Shown here one piece after another: positions 2,148-31,943 of a stretch of DNA of 64,000 bases; the first letter of the stretch is position 1; each line of letters opens with the position of its first letter. The position numbers were made by a program, and so were the translations under genes. This DNA is from Branchiostoma floridae (lineage: Eukaryota > Chordata > Leptocardii > Amphioxiformes > Branchiostomatidae). The stretch is taken from the NCBI RefSeq assembly GCF_000003815.2, contig NC_049983.1, forward strand, positions 16,814,907 through 16,878,906. The letters run 5' to 3'. A model generated the notes under the pieces. That model did not search any database and was not told the DNA's origin. It saw only the letters and a program-made list of their open reading frames with translations.

Positions 2148-3575
2148 AAACATGGTGGCGTCAAAAATATCATAACTTTGTACCGATTTTCTGTTTGTGC
2201 AGAATACATATAGTCTTCATCATTAAGAAATGGGTTGTTACCAGTGATAGGTTACCAGTATGGCATAGAGCAGGCCAGGGCAAGTAGATAACTGCTTGTA
2301 ACTTGGAAGAAAACATTTGAGTGTAGATAACTTGTATTGTTAATGCATAACAGTGAGATATGCAGAACTTAGTTTGCGACACTGTCAGGTTGTTTAGTCA
2401 ATATAAGCAGTCGCTGTGTTCCTGTGAAGCTGGTTTGTTACACTGAAGAGCGGGTATACCGGCTATACAGAGATTCAGATTGATTATTTAGATATTGTTC
2501 AAATCTTGACACAAACAAGAAAATTAGCGGGGATTTCATGTTACATATGTATACTATGATCTAAGGTTTAGGGTGTGTTTATGATGGTTTAAATGGTTCC
2601 ACAATCCAGCTCTAGAAATGGAGTGTTCCATTTCTTTGTGGATATATAAGTGGTGTGATAATGTAATGAGTTGGATGTATTTTCACTATATTGTGTAGCT
2701 CAGTACAGTGTAAAGGACTGAGCTTTTGGTACTCAGATTGTGATATTAGGATACAATAATGTTTGAAAACAAGTCCGGTAATGTATTGTAAATTTCCTTT
2801 CCTTATGAGACTCTACTTCTATTATTCATATCAAAAGAGTTGTATGTACAATGTAGTCGTGACTGCTAGAATTATAATAGGTTCAAATGCTGAATGGGAA
2901 CATGTAAAGTTCAGAAGGTTGTAAAATTGTACAGTACAAGCCTATCAACACTATGGTGTATTTTGATTTGTGAAACTCATATGTCATAGATTATAACATG
3001 ATGAGATGTCAGTTATGATAAAATCCCACTTGAAAAAAGTTATATGGATGTCATTTCAGTTCATAGTGTAAAGTAAAGCTCAGAACAGTATAAATGTAAA
3101 AAGGGAAGATGAGTGTTACATTTTTCTGTTGTCTTCTAGAAGTGACTGTACAATGGTTATGGCATGTATAACTATAACATTTGTAGTGTACTCAATGGAA
3201 GAAGTAACTGTGACAACTAAGTAAGAAGATACACTCTGGGTTATTCTTCAAATATCACTCAATTCCTGGTAGTCTGTTAACTCTGTTAGCAGTTGGTGTA
3301 GGTACTCTATGCATAAGCTATAACACCTGAAAAATATCGAGATATTGAAAAAGTTGAAAATGTTGTGTTGGTGAAGCTATAGACAAACAGTGTGCTGACA
3401 ACTGATATAAAGTCCTTATGGACATTGTGTACCCAACACTAGTGCAATACAACTTGTTCACTGTACCATTCTGAAAGTGTTGTGTGGCTTACTAATCTTA
3501 CATTTATGCATCGTGGAAAGACTCTTACTTCATTCTAAGCATGGAGCGTTGTTCTAAGTTAGCAATTAAAATAAA
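2148..3575 (+). other. Probable RNASEK 3' UTR ending at an AATAAA
   Basis: No supported coding sequence. AATAAA at 3570-3575 is the first canonical polyadenylation signal on the plus strand after the RNASEK stop. It sits only about 130 bp from the stop codon of the convergent minus-strand DED gene, so the two transcripts would meet tail to tail. Confidence 0.45.
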
Positions 3576-3706
3576 CCAATGTACAATGTATCTTAAACAT
3601 CATAGCTGGATATTCATGAATATCCTTGTCAATATTCGGGAAATTCTTGCAATATTTGTGACACTGGCCACCTATAGTATCAAACTTAAATCGGATCTCA
3701 TAATGA

Positions 3707-5720
3707 TTATAAGAGCACGCAAAATTTTGAGGATTTCTTCTTTCCTGATGTGGTCGTTGGAATGTCCTTTGGAGAAGTTTTATCACAAGAACGGTTGCCT
3801 GTGTCCTCTTGGTCTTGTTCCCTAGTTTCTTCTGGGACGGCGCCCATGTTTCCGGCCAGGACAGCACGTTTGGGGCCGTTTTCGGGAATAGTGGAGAGGC
3901 GGCGTTTGCTGTCGCTGTTTGAAGAGGCTGCTGCTCCCTGCGGAAGCGGTAGACACATTTAAATGCATTTATAACCAAACTTCCCAGATGTGTATACTCA
4001 GTAAAATCTCAGCTAGTCTGCCTATCATACAGTGGTGCTTGCACCTGCCTGATCTTGGAATCTGGAAAGACCTTTGCATGTGATGCCACAACCACCAGGC
4101 GCAATGTTTACTCAACCCCCAAGTCCTTTCAAAGTTGAATTTACCGTAGTGGCAACTACCAGGTTTAACCATCCAACATGGCGGACAATGCTACGTCATA
4201 GTCACATGAGTGCGAACCACTGATTATGTGGTCTGAGTGAGAAGTGCAAAACCCGCATCTCCACCATAGTAGATCTATACCATGTTGCAATATCCTTACA
4301 GTCATCTTATTTTTTTCAGCCTGAGTCGAAGTTTAAATTTTCACCTCTTCGTCTTCTTCCTCTTCTTCTTCTTCCTCCACCACTTGCGGCTGATTGGAGG
4401 CTACAAACGGCGACTTACTGACCCACGGTGTATCCTTCCGCCTCCTGGCCAGTCTAGCAGCGTCATCACCTACAGAAAAACAGCCAAGTAGGTGGGCAAG
4501 AACCACGTCCTTTTTTGAGAGGAAAATGAAGTCGTGGAAGGCCAAAGCTCAATTTTATTGACAACCTAAGAGCTGACACCAGACTAAGGCCTACGTCACA
4601 TTTCCTACTCGGGTCCCGGTCAAGCTGTTTGCGGAAACGAAAAATCAAAATTTATGCCAATAAATATACACAAGGCGTGCTGTTGAATTATTCTGGGTAC
4701 GTTTTGTGTTCTTGTTGTCTTTTATATCGTACTTTTCGTTCCCAAAAACTGCCAGGCCGGGCCCCTTTGTGGAGATGTGACGTTAGCCTAAGTAAAGGCA
4801 ATCAAGACCCAGATGGAAGATGGGGAAGAAGCGTTCGAGCCTAGTACGAGCGGGTGCTTGGCCAAAGAAAATGTATGCCCACATACTATAACATAGTCTA
4901 TGGCCACAAACGTGTTAAAGCCAGCGGTTCTATGCACCCTAAGTCGTAAAACAATATGTGCAGATATGCTACATTAGATTGACATTAAAATGAAAAGTGA
5001 CAGAAGAATGACGAGTGCTACTGGTTACAACATCTACGAATCCCATGATGTTATGAAACAAAAACTTTTATTGCAGAAAAACAAAAACAAAAACAACATT
5101 GTTTACTTAAAAGTCATAGACAGCCGTAACTTACTTTTAGAAGAGAACTCTTTGAGTTTGATGACCAGATCGTCTCTCCCCGCCATCTTCATTGCTTCCT
5201 CAAGTTTACCCACGTTGTTGGGAGGCCCGATTTTCCCGTGATCCTCCAGGGTCTCCAACAAGTCAAACGGACTCCTCACTTTCTCTAAGATACTTTCTCC
5301 CAGGTCCTCCTTGAACATGAACTTGACGATTTCCATGTCGTCTTCTTTCATTTCTTTCCCCAACTCGTACAGAAGAGTCCTATACGGTGTAGGATGCTCA
5401 TTCAAGAACAGAGGTTGATTTGTCCGCCATGTTGCATCGTCCTTGTAGGTGTCCTCCATAATTTTTACCAAGTCCTCTCTCCCTATGATTTGGAGCAATT
5501 TTTCCAGGAAGCCCAGCTGACACACAAAGAGGGCTAACCCCTTGTAGATTCGAGACAGTTCTGTCTTTGGGAAGACGTCGATTACAAGAAACTTCAGCTC
5601 TTCAATTTCATTCTCCGCCAACTTACTCGAAAGTTCTTTTAAAAGCTTATTCTGCACAACGACTTCAGATAAAGTTAAGGTAGTGGTGTGCCGCACATAC
5701 GTTTCCGACATTGTTGTCAA
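3707..5720 (-). CDS. Tandem death-effector-domain protein with C-terminal CaaX prenylation box
   Basis: Three exons on the minus strand (5720-5135, 4469-4345, 3937-3707) join in matching phases (1, then 0) to about 313 residues. Exon 1 encodes two consecutive six-helix DEDs (about residues 16-95 and 110-195), each with the RxDL signature of helix 6 (GREDLV, GRDDLV). The domain order is that of c-FLIP and the prodomains of caspases 8/10. Exon 2 ends in a Glu/Asp run. Exon 3 is Ser/Lys rich and ends GKKKSSKFCVLL: a polybasic patch plus a CaaX box with terminal Leu, the pattern geranylgeranyltransferase I recognises. No caspase domain is present. If exon 1 reads through its GTAAGT donor, it hits a stop (5103-5105) after ten different codons and a polyA signal, giving a 205-residue unanchored form. 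Seen: domains, splice sites, CaaX. Inferred: adaptor or FLIP-like modulator on membranes. Confidence 0.78.
4584..4791. mobile_element. MITE, family shared with 62236-62652
   Basis: About 208 bp with imperfect inverted ends: CTAAGGCCTACGTCACATTT at the left, and at the right a stretch whose complement reads CTTAGGCTAACGTCACATC. Both arms have a GGCC/GGTCCCGG-rich subterminal part and an ACACAAGGCGT core. Two further copies with the same ends lie in tandem at 62236-62430 and 62435-62652. There is no coding capacity. It lies in intron 1 of the DED gene. Confidence 0.7.
5067..5072 (-). terminator. Intronic polyadenylation signal of the DED gene
   Basis: TTTATT on the plus strand reads AATAAA on the minus strand, 31 bp past the read-through stop codon at 5103 and inside intron 1 of the spliced model. 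It would terminate the short isoform. Confidence 0.55.
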
Positions 5721-7765
5721 ACTGCAATGTTCCGTGCGCAGCGATTGCGTGAAAAGCTACGGTCCAAACACCAGGACGCCGAGACCTTTGCCTGAAAAAC
5801 AGCGAACAAAGTACAGTGTTAAGACACTTGAGATTAAGTCGTGTGAACTAACACGATTAAATCGGCCTTTTTTAGACCTTGGACGGATTCTGACTGGCAA
5901 CCTTTGTCACTGTGTAGGGACTTTGGACAAAGAGGCTGCTGCGACTGTGCAGTTACGAATTCTTTCGTACCCAAACTTGCCGGAAAATCTAAGCTTAAAA
6001 AAAAAGCTTACTGAAAAATTTAACAGTAAGGTAACGACCATCCTGTCCTGGTGAACTTATGTTGTCACTGGCCTAAGTCTTTTGTGATATTCGGATGTCA
6101 TTTTTGTCCAGTTGATTCCAATTGATTCAATTGTAGAATGTGACGGCGGACATTTGGCCCAACGTTGTTCAGAGGACAAGGTACAAAATAGAGCGCAGTA
6201 TCACCTTGAATTTGAAGGCAGTCAAAATTGCATCTATAGTTCATTTCTTAACTTCACATTTGCGACTCCACCGTTTGTATTCGTCCTAAACCAGGATAAG
6301 GCCTCTCGCCCGGACGAGGACTGTGGAAAAGTAAATTTACTCATACGATCCTAAGTTGGAATGTGTTGTGCAACTACTGGGCATGGCTGGTACGCAGAGA
6401 TCCAATAATTATATGCTATATAGTCAACAACTTCCTTATATGGTATATCGCCCACGGTCTTATCATCAAAGCCACTGTCACTAATGTCATACGCCTATGA
6501 TAGGATTACGATATAGTCAGACTTACAAAATTTGTGACCAAAAAATGTTGATTCTTGAAGATGATCGACAGTTTCTTAGCAGTCCATTAGCCTCGCTCAA
6601 CATCGTACGGAGAAAATCGCACCACGCATGTTTATGGCGCGGTCACATAGGTCATGCGATTTTGGTGCCATAGGATTTTCAAGCAGGCTGTGACAGAACC
6701 AACCACCACCGACATGGATCCAAAACAGCAATTTGTGTATCAAGACAGCTAAACTATGCAGGAGACGTACGTTTATTGTCCTGCAAAATGCCTGAAGTTA
6801 GCGATCTTAAGACGATCGCACGACCTATATGTGACTGCGCCCTTAACACGACAAAAACACCATTCATATACATGCTATGATTGTTCCATGGATATATTCA
6901 GAGCAAGACGACATACATACCTTGTTTGTCTACAGGAGGCGGATTTGCTTCCTTATTTCCGCCACTGGCTGCGCGCAACCAAAAGGACTAAACTAAACCT
7001 GGCAACGTTATGTAAACAGTCGATAGCATGCCTTTACTAAGCAACCATAAAAACACGTCAGGTCCTGTGCAAATACACGGGCAATATAAAGCGATGTGTA
7101 CTGTTGATGGAGGGGGCAAGTTGATGGATGATTAAAAGTTATTGTTTAACGGCAAACAAACGAATAAAGTGTTTTCAAGAGGCTTGGTGTGTGTACGGGA
7201 CGACAAGCTAATTTACATAATGTGGTCAACAACACGCGTTTACTACTACAGTACTACGGTAGCAAGATAGAACCTATCCTGACTGTCCATCACAATCAAC
7301 AGTTAGTGAAAAAGAAAGACTGCCTTCGTTGCTTTTGTTTTGCATATCTTCGTTTTAGAAGAGGGTGAGCTATGGGATCAGTGTATTCAGCTTGTTGAAC
7401 TTCAATACCATTAATTAGAGTTCTAAGTTCAAAAAACGTTCACGTTCACGTTCTGTGAAGTACTATGAAGAGTCAAGACCTTATCACATTCGAAGTATTA
7501 TAATAATCCATTCATGGCCTCTGCAGTTATGTTGCTAAGGTACAAACACCATTTCACAATCACACCACTGTAAATCTTACCCAAAACACAGCCTTCTCGA
7601 TAAAGGAAGGAAAGTACATGTATTGATATTCGTACTTTGCTTCTTCTTTTTTTTTTAGATCTACAAATTTTAAATGTTCATGACATGTTCTTACCTGAAT
7701 CAGACAGGAGTGCACATCCGTAGCCAAAATGGTGGTCTTAAAAAGTTTTTCAAAAGCTTTTTTTT

Positions 7766-9115: not shown

Positions 9116-12100
9116 ATGTCTGCAGACGACAGCCCCGATCTACCGCTGCAGGACAAGCCATGTGCGCAGTGTGGCGCTGCAGCCGAGCAGCGCTGTGGCA
9201 GGTGACGGATTTCTTTTCTTTTATTACATTCTCAACAGAACCATGATCTTAATCTGAAAAGTTTCTTCTTTTATCGCCGTCAACGTGAAAATATTGAATC
9301 TACGCAATTATAAACCTAAAAGAAATTTCCCTCTTATGATCTGACGTCATTTGGTTCGACGTCAAAACGTAGAGCCAGCGCCGCCGCCGAAGGGGCAATA
9401 TAATTTTTCTGTAAAATGATAATTCCTAGCTTCAAATGTACAGGCCTATTCTAGATTGACTTCACACGAATCTTTAACCATCCAACATGGTGGACAGTGA
9501 ATGGCGCCATCGTCACGTGACTGGGAACCAACCTCTACTCTTTTGCAGATGTCTGTCGGTATATTACTGCTCACGTGACCACCAGAAGGAACACTGGAAG
9601 GCGCACAGACTGGACTGTAAACCGTACAGGATAGAGACGACAGAGGACAGAGGTAATACATGTTGTCATCCGCTTTAGGCTTTACAATAGCCTGGCCTGA
9701 CTCCAGCCTTGTTAGCATTGGTCCGCTCATGAAGGTCGCTACCCCGCCAACAAGACTGGGTACCCTCAATATGTATCCGCCAAAGTTTTGTTGTTGATTG
9801 TACTTGTTATACTCGTTTGTGTTGTATTTGTTTACATCCTTGTGACATCATTTTGTATTCATATATATTATTAACGTTGGTTTGTTTATGTAATCTTATT
9901 TTATTTTGGACAGAAGCGAGGGAAAGGACTTATGCCTGTTACTTTTGTCCAACTCATTTTTACACGCATGATGAAGAAGTTGAAATAAATAAAAAAATAA
10001 AAAACAATCAAACGTTTAACGGCGGCGTTTGTTAGCAGGGAACGGACCAAAGCTAACAAGGCTGGATTTCAGGCTAGCCTTACAACTCTCCAATTAGCCC
10101 AGCCTTGCACTAGGTACTAGTATTCCTCGACCGTTATATGTGGGAGCATCGAATGCAATTTTTCTTTCAATTTTGTCTCTTTTTTTTCTCATTTTCTCTG
10201 CCATCTTTAATCGGAAATTAGATTAAGTGAAATATGATATTAGTAACAGGAAGATAGTTTGAGGCCAGTCCTTAGGCCTTTACTTTATTCCGCGTTTCAG
10301 GGACAAAGAAGGGTAGCATGTGAAAGGATACATTTTGTCATACAAGGGAAGAGTGTAATGTAACACGATAATAACGTATTACAACAAGGGGACACTAAAC
10401 AAGAGAACCCAATGAATGTCAACATTGGCGCAGTGTGAAAAAGAATATAGAAACATTTTTATTTTAAAGTCCAGGAGCGTGAATGGGCCATGACGGCCGG
10501 GAGTAACTTGATAGTGTATTCTGTAGTTAGTACTGTCCCTGGTGCGGAATGCTTTCCCACCTCTCCATCTCTTTCCTACTGTCTTTCTCCCGTTCTCTCT
10601 CCCCCTCTCTCTCTCTCTCTTTCTCAAAACATTCATTTGTACTACTATACTATACTTTGCTTGTCCACCTCTCCATCTTTTTCCTTGTCTTTCTCAATTT
10701 CTCTCCCTCTTTTTCTCTCTCGTGCTCTTTCTCTTTCTCTCTCAAAACGTTCATTTGTACTACAATACAGACCATAAGTAAAACGACGAACGACGGTGTC
10801 ATGACAAAAATAACATGTTCTTTTATTCTAATGTCTAAGTCACAACGTCACATCGGCTAACAGAATGGGGACATCAACTTTCAAAGAGACAGTCCTAAAC
10901 TTTCAAGGTTACAGTCCTAAACTTTCAAGGGGACAGTTTGAGTTAGCAGCAGCCACCGATATGCCTTAAACTTTATAGTTATGAAGCTCTGTGAAAGGCA
11001 ATTCTAACATCCATCCTTAAAGTGGTAAAACCTACATGTACAATACATGGTTACAATGTAATATTAAAAACATGTATATTTAAGCCATCACTTACAGCTG
11101 AGACATACTAGACTTAACATGACAAAACAGTGAGTATAGATACATATTCGTCAACATTTAATATACATATACTAACGTTATATAATATCAAGAATATTGT
11201 ATAATGATCTTGATAATATCATCTCTCAGATAAGAAAGATGCATAATCAGCCGGTCTGCTCGGGTGCATCCACCGGCGCACGGAACACCAGGTTCGGCGT
11301 CAGCGGGTACCCTGCCGCAGACACGCCGGTGCCGATCCGTACGTTCGGCCAGGTGGTCAGCATGCTCGCCATCGCGTACGCTTCATACCTCTGCGCCGCC
11401 TCCTGCTCCAACCGGGCCTGCTCAGCCGCCTTCTTCTCGTAAGACTTTTTCTTCTCCCGAGACTTTGCCGCCTCCCGAGACTTGGCCGACTCCCGAGACT
11501 TTCTGCCTCCTCTTCTCATCTTCCCCACTTTCTGCGCTTCCTTCGCCTTCAGCTTTGTTCCGCCGGCTGTGCCACCAGACAGAAACCCGGACTTCATCCC
11601 GCCAAAGGTTTCCTTCTTTCTGGCACCACTCTTGTTGTTTTGACGCTGTGCATCCTGACCATCTGTAGACGGTGCGAAGGTTACCTTCTTCTTAGCACCA
11701 CTCTTGTCAGCTGAAGGCTGAGCATCCAGGTCGTCTGTAGACGGTGCGAATGTCACCTTCTTCCTCGCACCACTCTTGTCAGCTGAACCCTGTCCATCCC
11801 GGCCGTCTGCAGACGGTGCAGGGGTAGGCACCGAGGAGCTTGGACGGGGCAGGTTGGCCGGTGCAGGTCGCCCTGTAAGGAATAGAAAATAAGAAAGCAA
11901 ATCAGTACAAGCAAACACATTTTCACCCATTTTTAGAAAGCATATTGACATTGCTGCAGGACTTCTAAAACAGCTAGGCTTAGGAAAGACTCGTTCTATA
12001 TCAAAAGTTTAATGTTTCATGTGTTGCAGTAATCTGTGTAACCCCTCCAAAGTTGGGAGGCGAAATACGAAATAGTACAATACCAGTAGATCCCTTACTT

Positions 12101-22275: not shown

Positions 22276-31943
<9,668 letters not shown>

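Follow-up and report, generated by a model that had tools for sequence, protein, structure and literature searches.

Assemblies of death effector domains (DEDs), as in FADD, caspase-8 and c-FLIP, decide cell life and death, and receptors bring them to membranes. A locus of the amphioxus Branchiostoma floridae raises the question of whether such a module can carry a membrane anchor of its own and lose it through a choice of 3′ end, because an earlier note had proposed here a geranylgeranylated, FLIP-like tandem-DED protein with a soluble isoform made by intronic polyadenylation. If true, its own lipid anchor would be a receptor-independent way to place DED assemblies on membranes, and a switch between an anchored and a soluble 3′ end would be a simple form of control, as in the antiviral protein ZAP. 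We analyzed the locus in a window of 64,000 nucleotides (C5:16,814,907-16,878,906, hereafter the window) and searched the genome of 513,431,437 bases in 431 contigs.

On the minus strand, three exons join in frame into a predicted protein of 310 amino acids ending in GKKKSSKFCVLL. The parts of this gene model, in window coordinates, are:

5712..5791, minus strand: 5′ untranslated part of the ATG exon (direct reading; exon start at 5791 placed by an acceptor-like site)
5711-5135, minus strand: exon 1, 577 nt, carrying the tandem DED as residues 1-192 plus one base and ending in phase 1 (direct reading and Pfam)
5448..5651 (C5:16820354-16820557), minus strand: DED1, with its RxDL as REDL at residue 78 (PF01335, 39.6 bits in the genome search)
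5139..5384 (C5:16820045-16820290), minus strand: DED2, with its RxDL as RDDL at residue 179 (PF01335, 54.8 bits in the genome search)
5129..5134, minus strand: splice donor GTAAGT, phase 1 (splice-site score)
5103..5134, minus strand: retained-intron reading, comprising the rest of codon 193, nine codons and a TAA, for a predicted form of 202 amino acids without CaaX (direct reading)
5072-5067, minus strand: AATAAA inside the intron, flanked by U-rich sequence upstream and GU-rich sequence downstream (direct reading and flank composition)
4469-4345, minus strand: predicted exon 2, 125 nt, a basic and then acidic linker, LARRRKD ... EEEEEEEEDEE (codon score and chain enumeration)
3937-3707, minus strand: predicted exon 3, a tail with RRLS at residue 246, which we take to be a PKA-like consensus, and the polybasic CaaX end GKKKSSKFCVLL, followed by TAA (codon score and chain enumeration)

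The coordinates and the joined frame agree with the phase-1 GTAAGT donor after DED2 and the two phase-matched further exons described in the earlier note; the stop of the retained-intron path (TAA at 5103) and the AATAAA at 5067-5072 are both present on the minus strand, and the predicted spliced protein does end in CVLL, as the proposed CaaX exon implied. Codon 193 is serine on both the spliced and the retained-intron path, and the tail of the predicted long form, acidic run included, comprises 118 residues. Translation probably starts at the ATG at 5711, since an in-frame TAG (5759-5757, minus strand) precedes it and no ATG occurs in 5789-5712 of that strand. An acceptor-like site, GTTTTTCAG, lies at 5800-5792 (minus strand), just before the 5′ untranslated part.

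The identity of exon 1 is clear at the domain level. Its two halves, which had been read as RxDL-bearing DEDs, score 43.8 and 55.5 bits on their own against a curated PF01335 cut-off of 35.9, and the whole predicted protein matches the family at E = 2e-24; the RxDL of DEDs sits in helix 6. In a sequence search of the PDB, the best five matches were all c-FLIP chains (best E 7.9e-7), and caspase-8, PEA-15 and FADD ranked after them. A single-sequence AlphaFold2 model was poor (pLDDT 64, pTM 0.48, with five models spanning 39.8 to 64.0), and a Foldseek search with this low-confidence model (pLDDT 64) returned 15 matches at E <= 0.001, all of them entries of caspase-8/cFLIP DED assemblies, which suggests, at low confidence, a tandem-DED fold as in those assemblies. 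The label FLIP-like therefore suits the tandem-DED part, where c-FLIP takes the top five PDB places, but does not extend beyond the DEDs: no Pfam domain, and no caspase-like domain of the long c-FLIP type, was matched on the minus strand over the 3.7 kb downstream.

Within its genome the exon stands alone. No second copy was found at E <= 0.001, so a paralogue could not serve as conservation evidence, and the self-comparison of the window gave no meaningful internal copies. The only other genome match to the tandem DED at E <= 0.001 is the FADD-like DED of locus L011, where the same strand encodes both a DED and a Death domain; it is 31% identical over DED2, and by pairwise score it is the closest to both window DEDs among 31 other DED stretches drawn from 150 matches. 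In trees restricted to DEDs of this genome, with vertebrate sequences left out, DED1 groups with the DED of locus L019 (94/89 with 33 rows; 96/88 with 30 rows, after the long rows L022, L036 and L024 were dropped) and DED2 takes no resolved position. Holding DED1 and DED2 together was not rejected (p-AU 0.085), nor was holding either of them with the FADD-like DED (p-AU 0.16 and 0.24). At L013 (G000:C11:13560659-13561198, plus strand) two DEDs again share an exon and an open frame, and they pair together in the tree (93/76), unlike those of the window gene.

We then asked how amphioxus DEDs usually end. We surveyed 39 DED matches besides those of the window, taken from the 150 and including none of the 67 on C17, for donors of at least 3 bits between 30 bases before the domain end and the first in-frame stop or 120 bases. 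Such donors follow 32 of the 39 DEDs, in phase 1 in 28 cases, phase 2 in three and phase 0 in one, and are absent after the other seven. The window donor, AAA|GTAAGT, is in phase 1 and lies 4 bases past the domain end of DED2; since most sampled DEDs use this phase, the donor argues against a gene whose end is simply in the intron. Of the 4,107 GT sites on the minus strand, 21 score as high as this donor, itself included, and the exon-2 donor, GAG|GTGAAA, is middling, with 147 of the 4,107 scoring as high; these scores, like the chain enumeration and shuffles below, rest on splice-site weights that are generic to vertebrates and not derived from amphioxus.

Codon use and base composition both bear on exons 2 and 3. 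With codon weights derived from 5,984 codons in 18 long open frames chosen by eye from 79, several of them DED genes, the score of exon 2 is reached by 1 of 2,110 background frames, with about three quarters of that score carried by its final 14 codons, mostly for glutamate (4.4 of 16.9 bits come from the other 28 of its 42 codons). Exon 3 is matched by 27 of 591 background frames, and its frame is the best of six. GC content is 55% and 51% in exons 2 and 3 and 41% and 43% in the introns. An enumeration of chains from the exon-1 donor (up to three exons within 4.8 kb, the best 150 partial chains kept per step), made without using the earlier gene model, placed the exon 2/3 pair on top at 28.9, followed at 21.5 by the next chain with another last exon, and all eight top chains listed for this donor use the acceptor at 4469. 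None of 200 dinucleotide shuffles reached 28.9 (best 9.2), and 22 of 70 unshuffled chunks of other loci in the same genome hold some chain that does; these chunks are not a clean null because they hold real exons, and with so many reaching the score, the chain score alone is no proof.

Database searches gave the tail no family. A genome search for a second copy of it finds only itself, the next match being at E = 6.2. We rejected an origin of the tail as the last part of a gene for a small GTPase or G-gamma, since nothing in Pfam exceeds the cut-off there and all PDB matches fall within the DEDs. Matches to Piezo, PYRIN and bacterial death-like families, at E 0.06-0.4, fall below the cut-off.

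The ending itself is rare. Among 13,118 stops that follow at least 12 open codons in 260,220 bases (the window plus L011-L030), 98 close a CaaX and 22 a CaaL/F ending. Under a definition of polybasic that was chosen after the site was seen (at least four K/R in the ten preceding residues), five of the 13,118 are polybasic CaaX endings and two of those CaaL/F, exon 3 included, and for the 110 minus-strand stops from 5134 to 3000, chance alone would give ~0.01 polybasic CaaL/F endings. Across 20 loci spanning 9-10 kb each, of which 19 contain a DED, polybasic CaaX stops are absent from the DED strand downstream of the DED, over a reach that in some loci is only 0.3 to 3 kb. The three polybasic CaaX stops that do occur there lie against the DED strand in L014 (minus) and L019 (plus), and upstream of the DED in L028 (plus). 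The predicted protein has no clear transmembrane helix, its top 19-residue hydropathy (1.6) lying inside DED1. According to excerpts of a study in humanized yeast, CVLL is fully shifted by human GGTase-I in a lower-activity background and is also modified mainly in an FTase-dependent manner (PMC11152559). Since both enzymes modify this motif, prenylation of the predicted CVLL end is well founded for the motif and geranylgeranylation likely, not exclusive: the earlier claim stands in that CVLL suits GGTase-I, but not as a choice of one enzyme over the other.

The weaker link of the model is its distal 3′ end, given that neither AATAAA nor ATTAAA occurs within 2.7 kb after the CVLL stop, the next AATAAA being at 1009. 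Signal variants past that stop include CATAAA at 3508 and AATGAA at 3534. From 6000 to 1010 the minus strand has no ATTAAA and just two copies of AATAAA (5072 and 4559), each of them within intron 1. The retained-intron TAA (5105-5103, minus strand) is separated by 30 bases from the start of the AATAAA at 5072-5067, and this signal ranks first of 107 on both strands of the window by the sum of upstream T and downstream G+T, a flank measure chosen after the site was seen. On sequence grounds, then, the proximal 3′ end is the better supported of the two, which counts against the long form.

We consider it an even call whether, as we propose, a single-copy gene here encodes a tandem-DED adaptor or regulator that lacks a protease domain, and yields a spliced, prenylated long form and a soluble 202-residue form, switched by 3′-end choice. 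Its parts differ in strength: the CaaX protein is probably real, and the existence of the soluble isoform stands at about even. It is possible, if on balance doubtful, that the CaaX protein is made and has no regulated soluble form, the intronic AATAAA being there by chance or seldom used. With AATAAA present 108 times in 128 kb of strand (0.84 per kb), a copy less than 100 nt from a donor is no rarity (a chance of ~8%), and a donor in the usual DED phase should splice; the U-rich and GU-rich setting of this signal, however, outranks those of all the others among the 107 in the window, and the open frame reaches its stop just upstream of it.

A gene that encodes only a short tandem-DED protein ending in intron 1, with exons 2 and 3 outside the mRNA and CVLL a coincidence, is unlikely. 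It would suit the confinement of both AATAAA to intron 1, the lack of ATTAAA and the lack of a tail homologue in the genome search, but the donor fits the usual phase-1 junction, the exon 2/3 chain exceeds all 200 shuffles, codon use is coding-like with exons richer in GC than the introns, and a polybasic CaaX ending is rare. We regard as very improbable that exon 1 splices farther away to another effector domain, exons 2 and 3 belonging to a different minus-strand gene. Other amphioxus DEDs do sit in multidomain genes, such as the DED and Death domain of L011 and the DED-NACHT genes described in excerpts of PMC2575513; against such a partner, a three-frame scan of minus-strand positions 3706 to 1 found no Pfam domain (E up to 0.1), the acceptor at 4469 recurs in all eight top models listed, and the tail matches nothing above the Pfam cut-off or in the PDB.

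Under the proposed switch between anchored and soluble forms, splicing of intron 1 would give the 310-residue protein, which GGTase-I (or FTase) would prenylate, and the prenyl group together with the lysines would hold this form on acidic inner membranes. There it may gather or cap DED partners of the FADD or caspase-8 type, and it could seed or hold DED filaments. When intron 1 stays unspliced and cleavage follows the intronic AATAAA, the product would be a 202-residue tandem DED without an anchor that could cap DED assemblies in the cytosol, much as the short c-FLIP forms, which in excerpts of PMC5187897 limit caspase-8. Which 3′ end is used would thus decide whether the same DED module sits at the membrane or in the cytosol, a plausible isoform switch by analogy with ZAP-L and ZAP-S.

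A bolder reading, which we hold to be a long shot, is that amphioxus has a DED-based membrane branch in which DEDs take the role of vertebrate CARDs, the predicted tandem-DED protein acting as a MAVS-like adaptor and intronic polyadenylation freeing a soluble decoy. MAVS combines a single CARD with a transmembrane tail, and its layout, with a proline-rich stretch and a hydrophobic helix at the C-terminus, resembles that of L016. As a functional analogue it shares with the window gene a death-fold domain and a C-terminal membrane anchor (predicted here), whereas the amphioxus protein would have two DEDs and a prenylation signal and has no clear transmembrane helix. The branch is suggested by the grouping of DED1 (96/88, 30 rows) with the L019 DED, near a helicase exon, and by the DED protein of L016, which has a proline-rich stretch and ends in a hydrophobic helix. 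At L019 (G000:C5:11767000-11776900, minus strand), the DED exon precedes a helicase exon of the RIG-I/MDA5 type (best E 3.8e-30) by 2.7 kb on the same strand, which makes a DED-type RIG-I-like receptor possible there. A full RIG-I-like receptor at L019 was not secured, since all 10 matches to the RIG-I C-terminal domain in the genome are on C1 and C4 and none on C5. At L016 (G000:C5:8340694-8340897, minus strand; reverse-complement 4028-4676), an open frame holds a DED, a proline-rich stretch and a hydrophobic C-terminal VVLLSFLAALVFVCSVFLI, with a hydropathy of 3.0 over 19 residues; besides the window gene, L016 thus gives this genome a further DED protein, with a probable membrane anchor.

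Known systems resemble the predicted switch in parts. PEA-15, a weak PDB match to DED2, has one DED followed by an unstructured tail, and we know of no CaaX in it. To our knowledge, none of the c-FLIP forms carries a lipid anchor either. The predicted amphioxus long form bears the CaaX tail in place of the caspase-like domain of c-FLIP, and its DEDs differ from c-FLIP in scoring highest with the FADD-like DED of their own genome. The p46 and p42 isoforms of OAS1 arise by splicing. Like the c-FLIPS and c-FLIPR products of CFLAR, the short amphioxus form would consist of two DEDs without a protease domain, and the c-FLIP isoforms are made by alternative splicing (PMC5187897, excerpts). OAS1 is an innate immune protein whose CaaX isoform is prenylated (PMC8568172, excerpts) and goes to endomembranes (PMC8357416), but it is an enzyme unrelated to the tandem-DED protein. 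ZAP (ZC3HAV1/PARP13) has a short form made through alternative splicing and intronic polyadenylation and a long form whose CaaX box determines where on membranes it resides and is required for activity (excerpts of PMC13084044 and PMC8568172). It differs in being an unrelated RNA-binding protein with a farnesylated CVIS, compared with a CVLL that suits GGTase-I, and the amphioxus switch is only predicted.

A lipid-anchored DED protein and its 3′-end switch, both predicted, would be new here, and the gene is a probable new variant of DED adaptor. By title and abstract, no case of a prenylated DED protein or of an amphioxus c-FLIP appeared among the top literature matches listed (for instance 15 of 668 and 10 of 3,513), which include few subscription papers; a published case may therefore have been missed. 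The terms "death effector domain", "CAAX" and "geranylgeranyl" co-occur in PMC2997345, with one occurrence each, amphioxus and c-FLIP are named together in four papers, and the excerpts of PMC2246300 and PMC6759578 hold nothing on the window gene. Amphioxus DEDs in odd company are normal, including DED-NACHT, DED with caspases and DED-ASC (excerpts of PMC2575513 and PMC3196919). The genome has at least 150 DED matches at E <= 0.001, a large set that makes it a good place to look for DED inventions. A large local expansion places 67 of the 150 listed matches in a single 0.6-Mb stretch (G000:C17:18.28-18.90 Mb). Near the window gene, an open frame at 9478-9678 (plus strand) encodes a MYND zinc finger (E 1.8e-7, match ~9535-9618) and is probably part of a head-to-head neighbor gene. 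Farther along, at 24800-25329, self-comparison of the window shows a tandem array with a step of ~48 bases.
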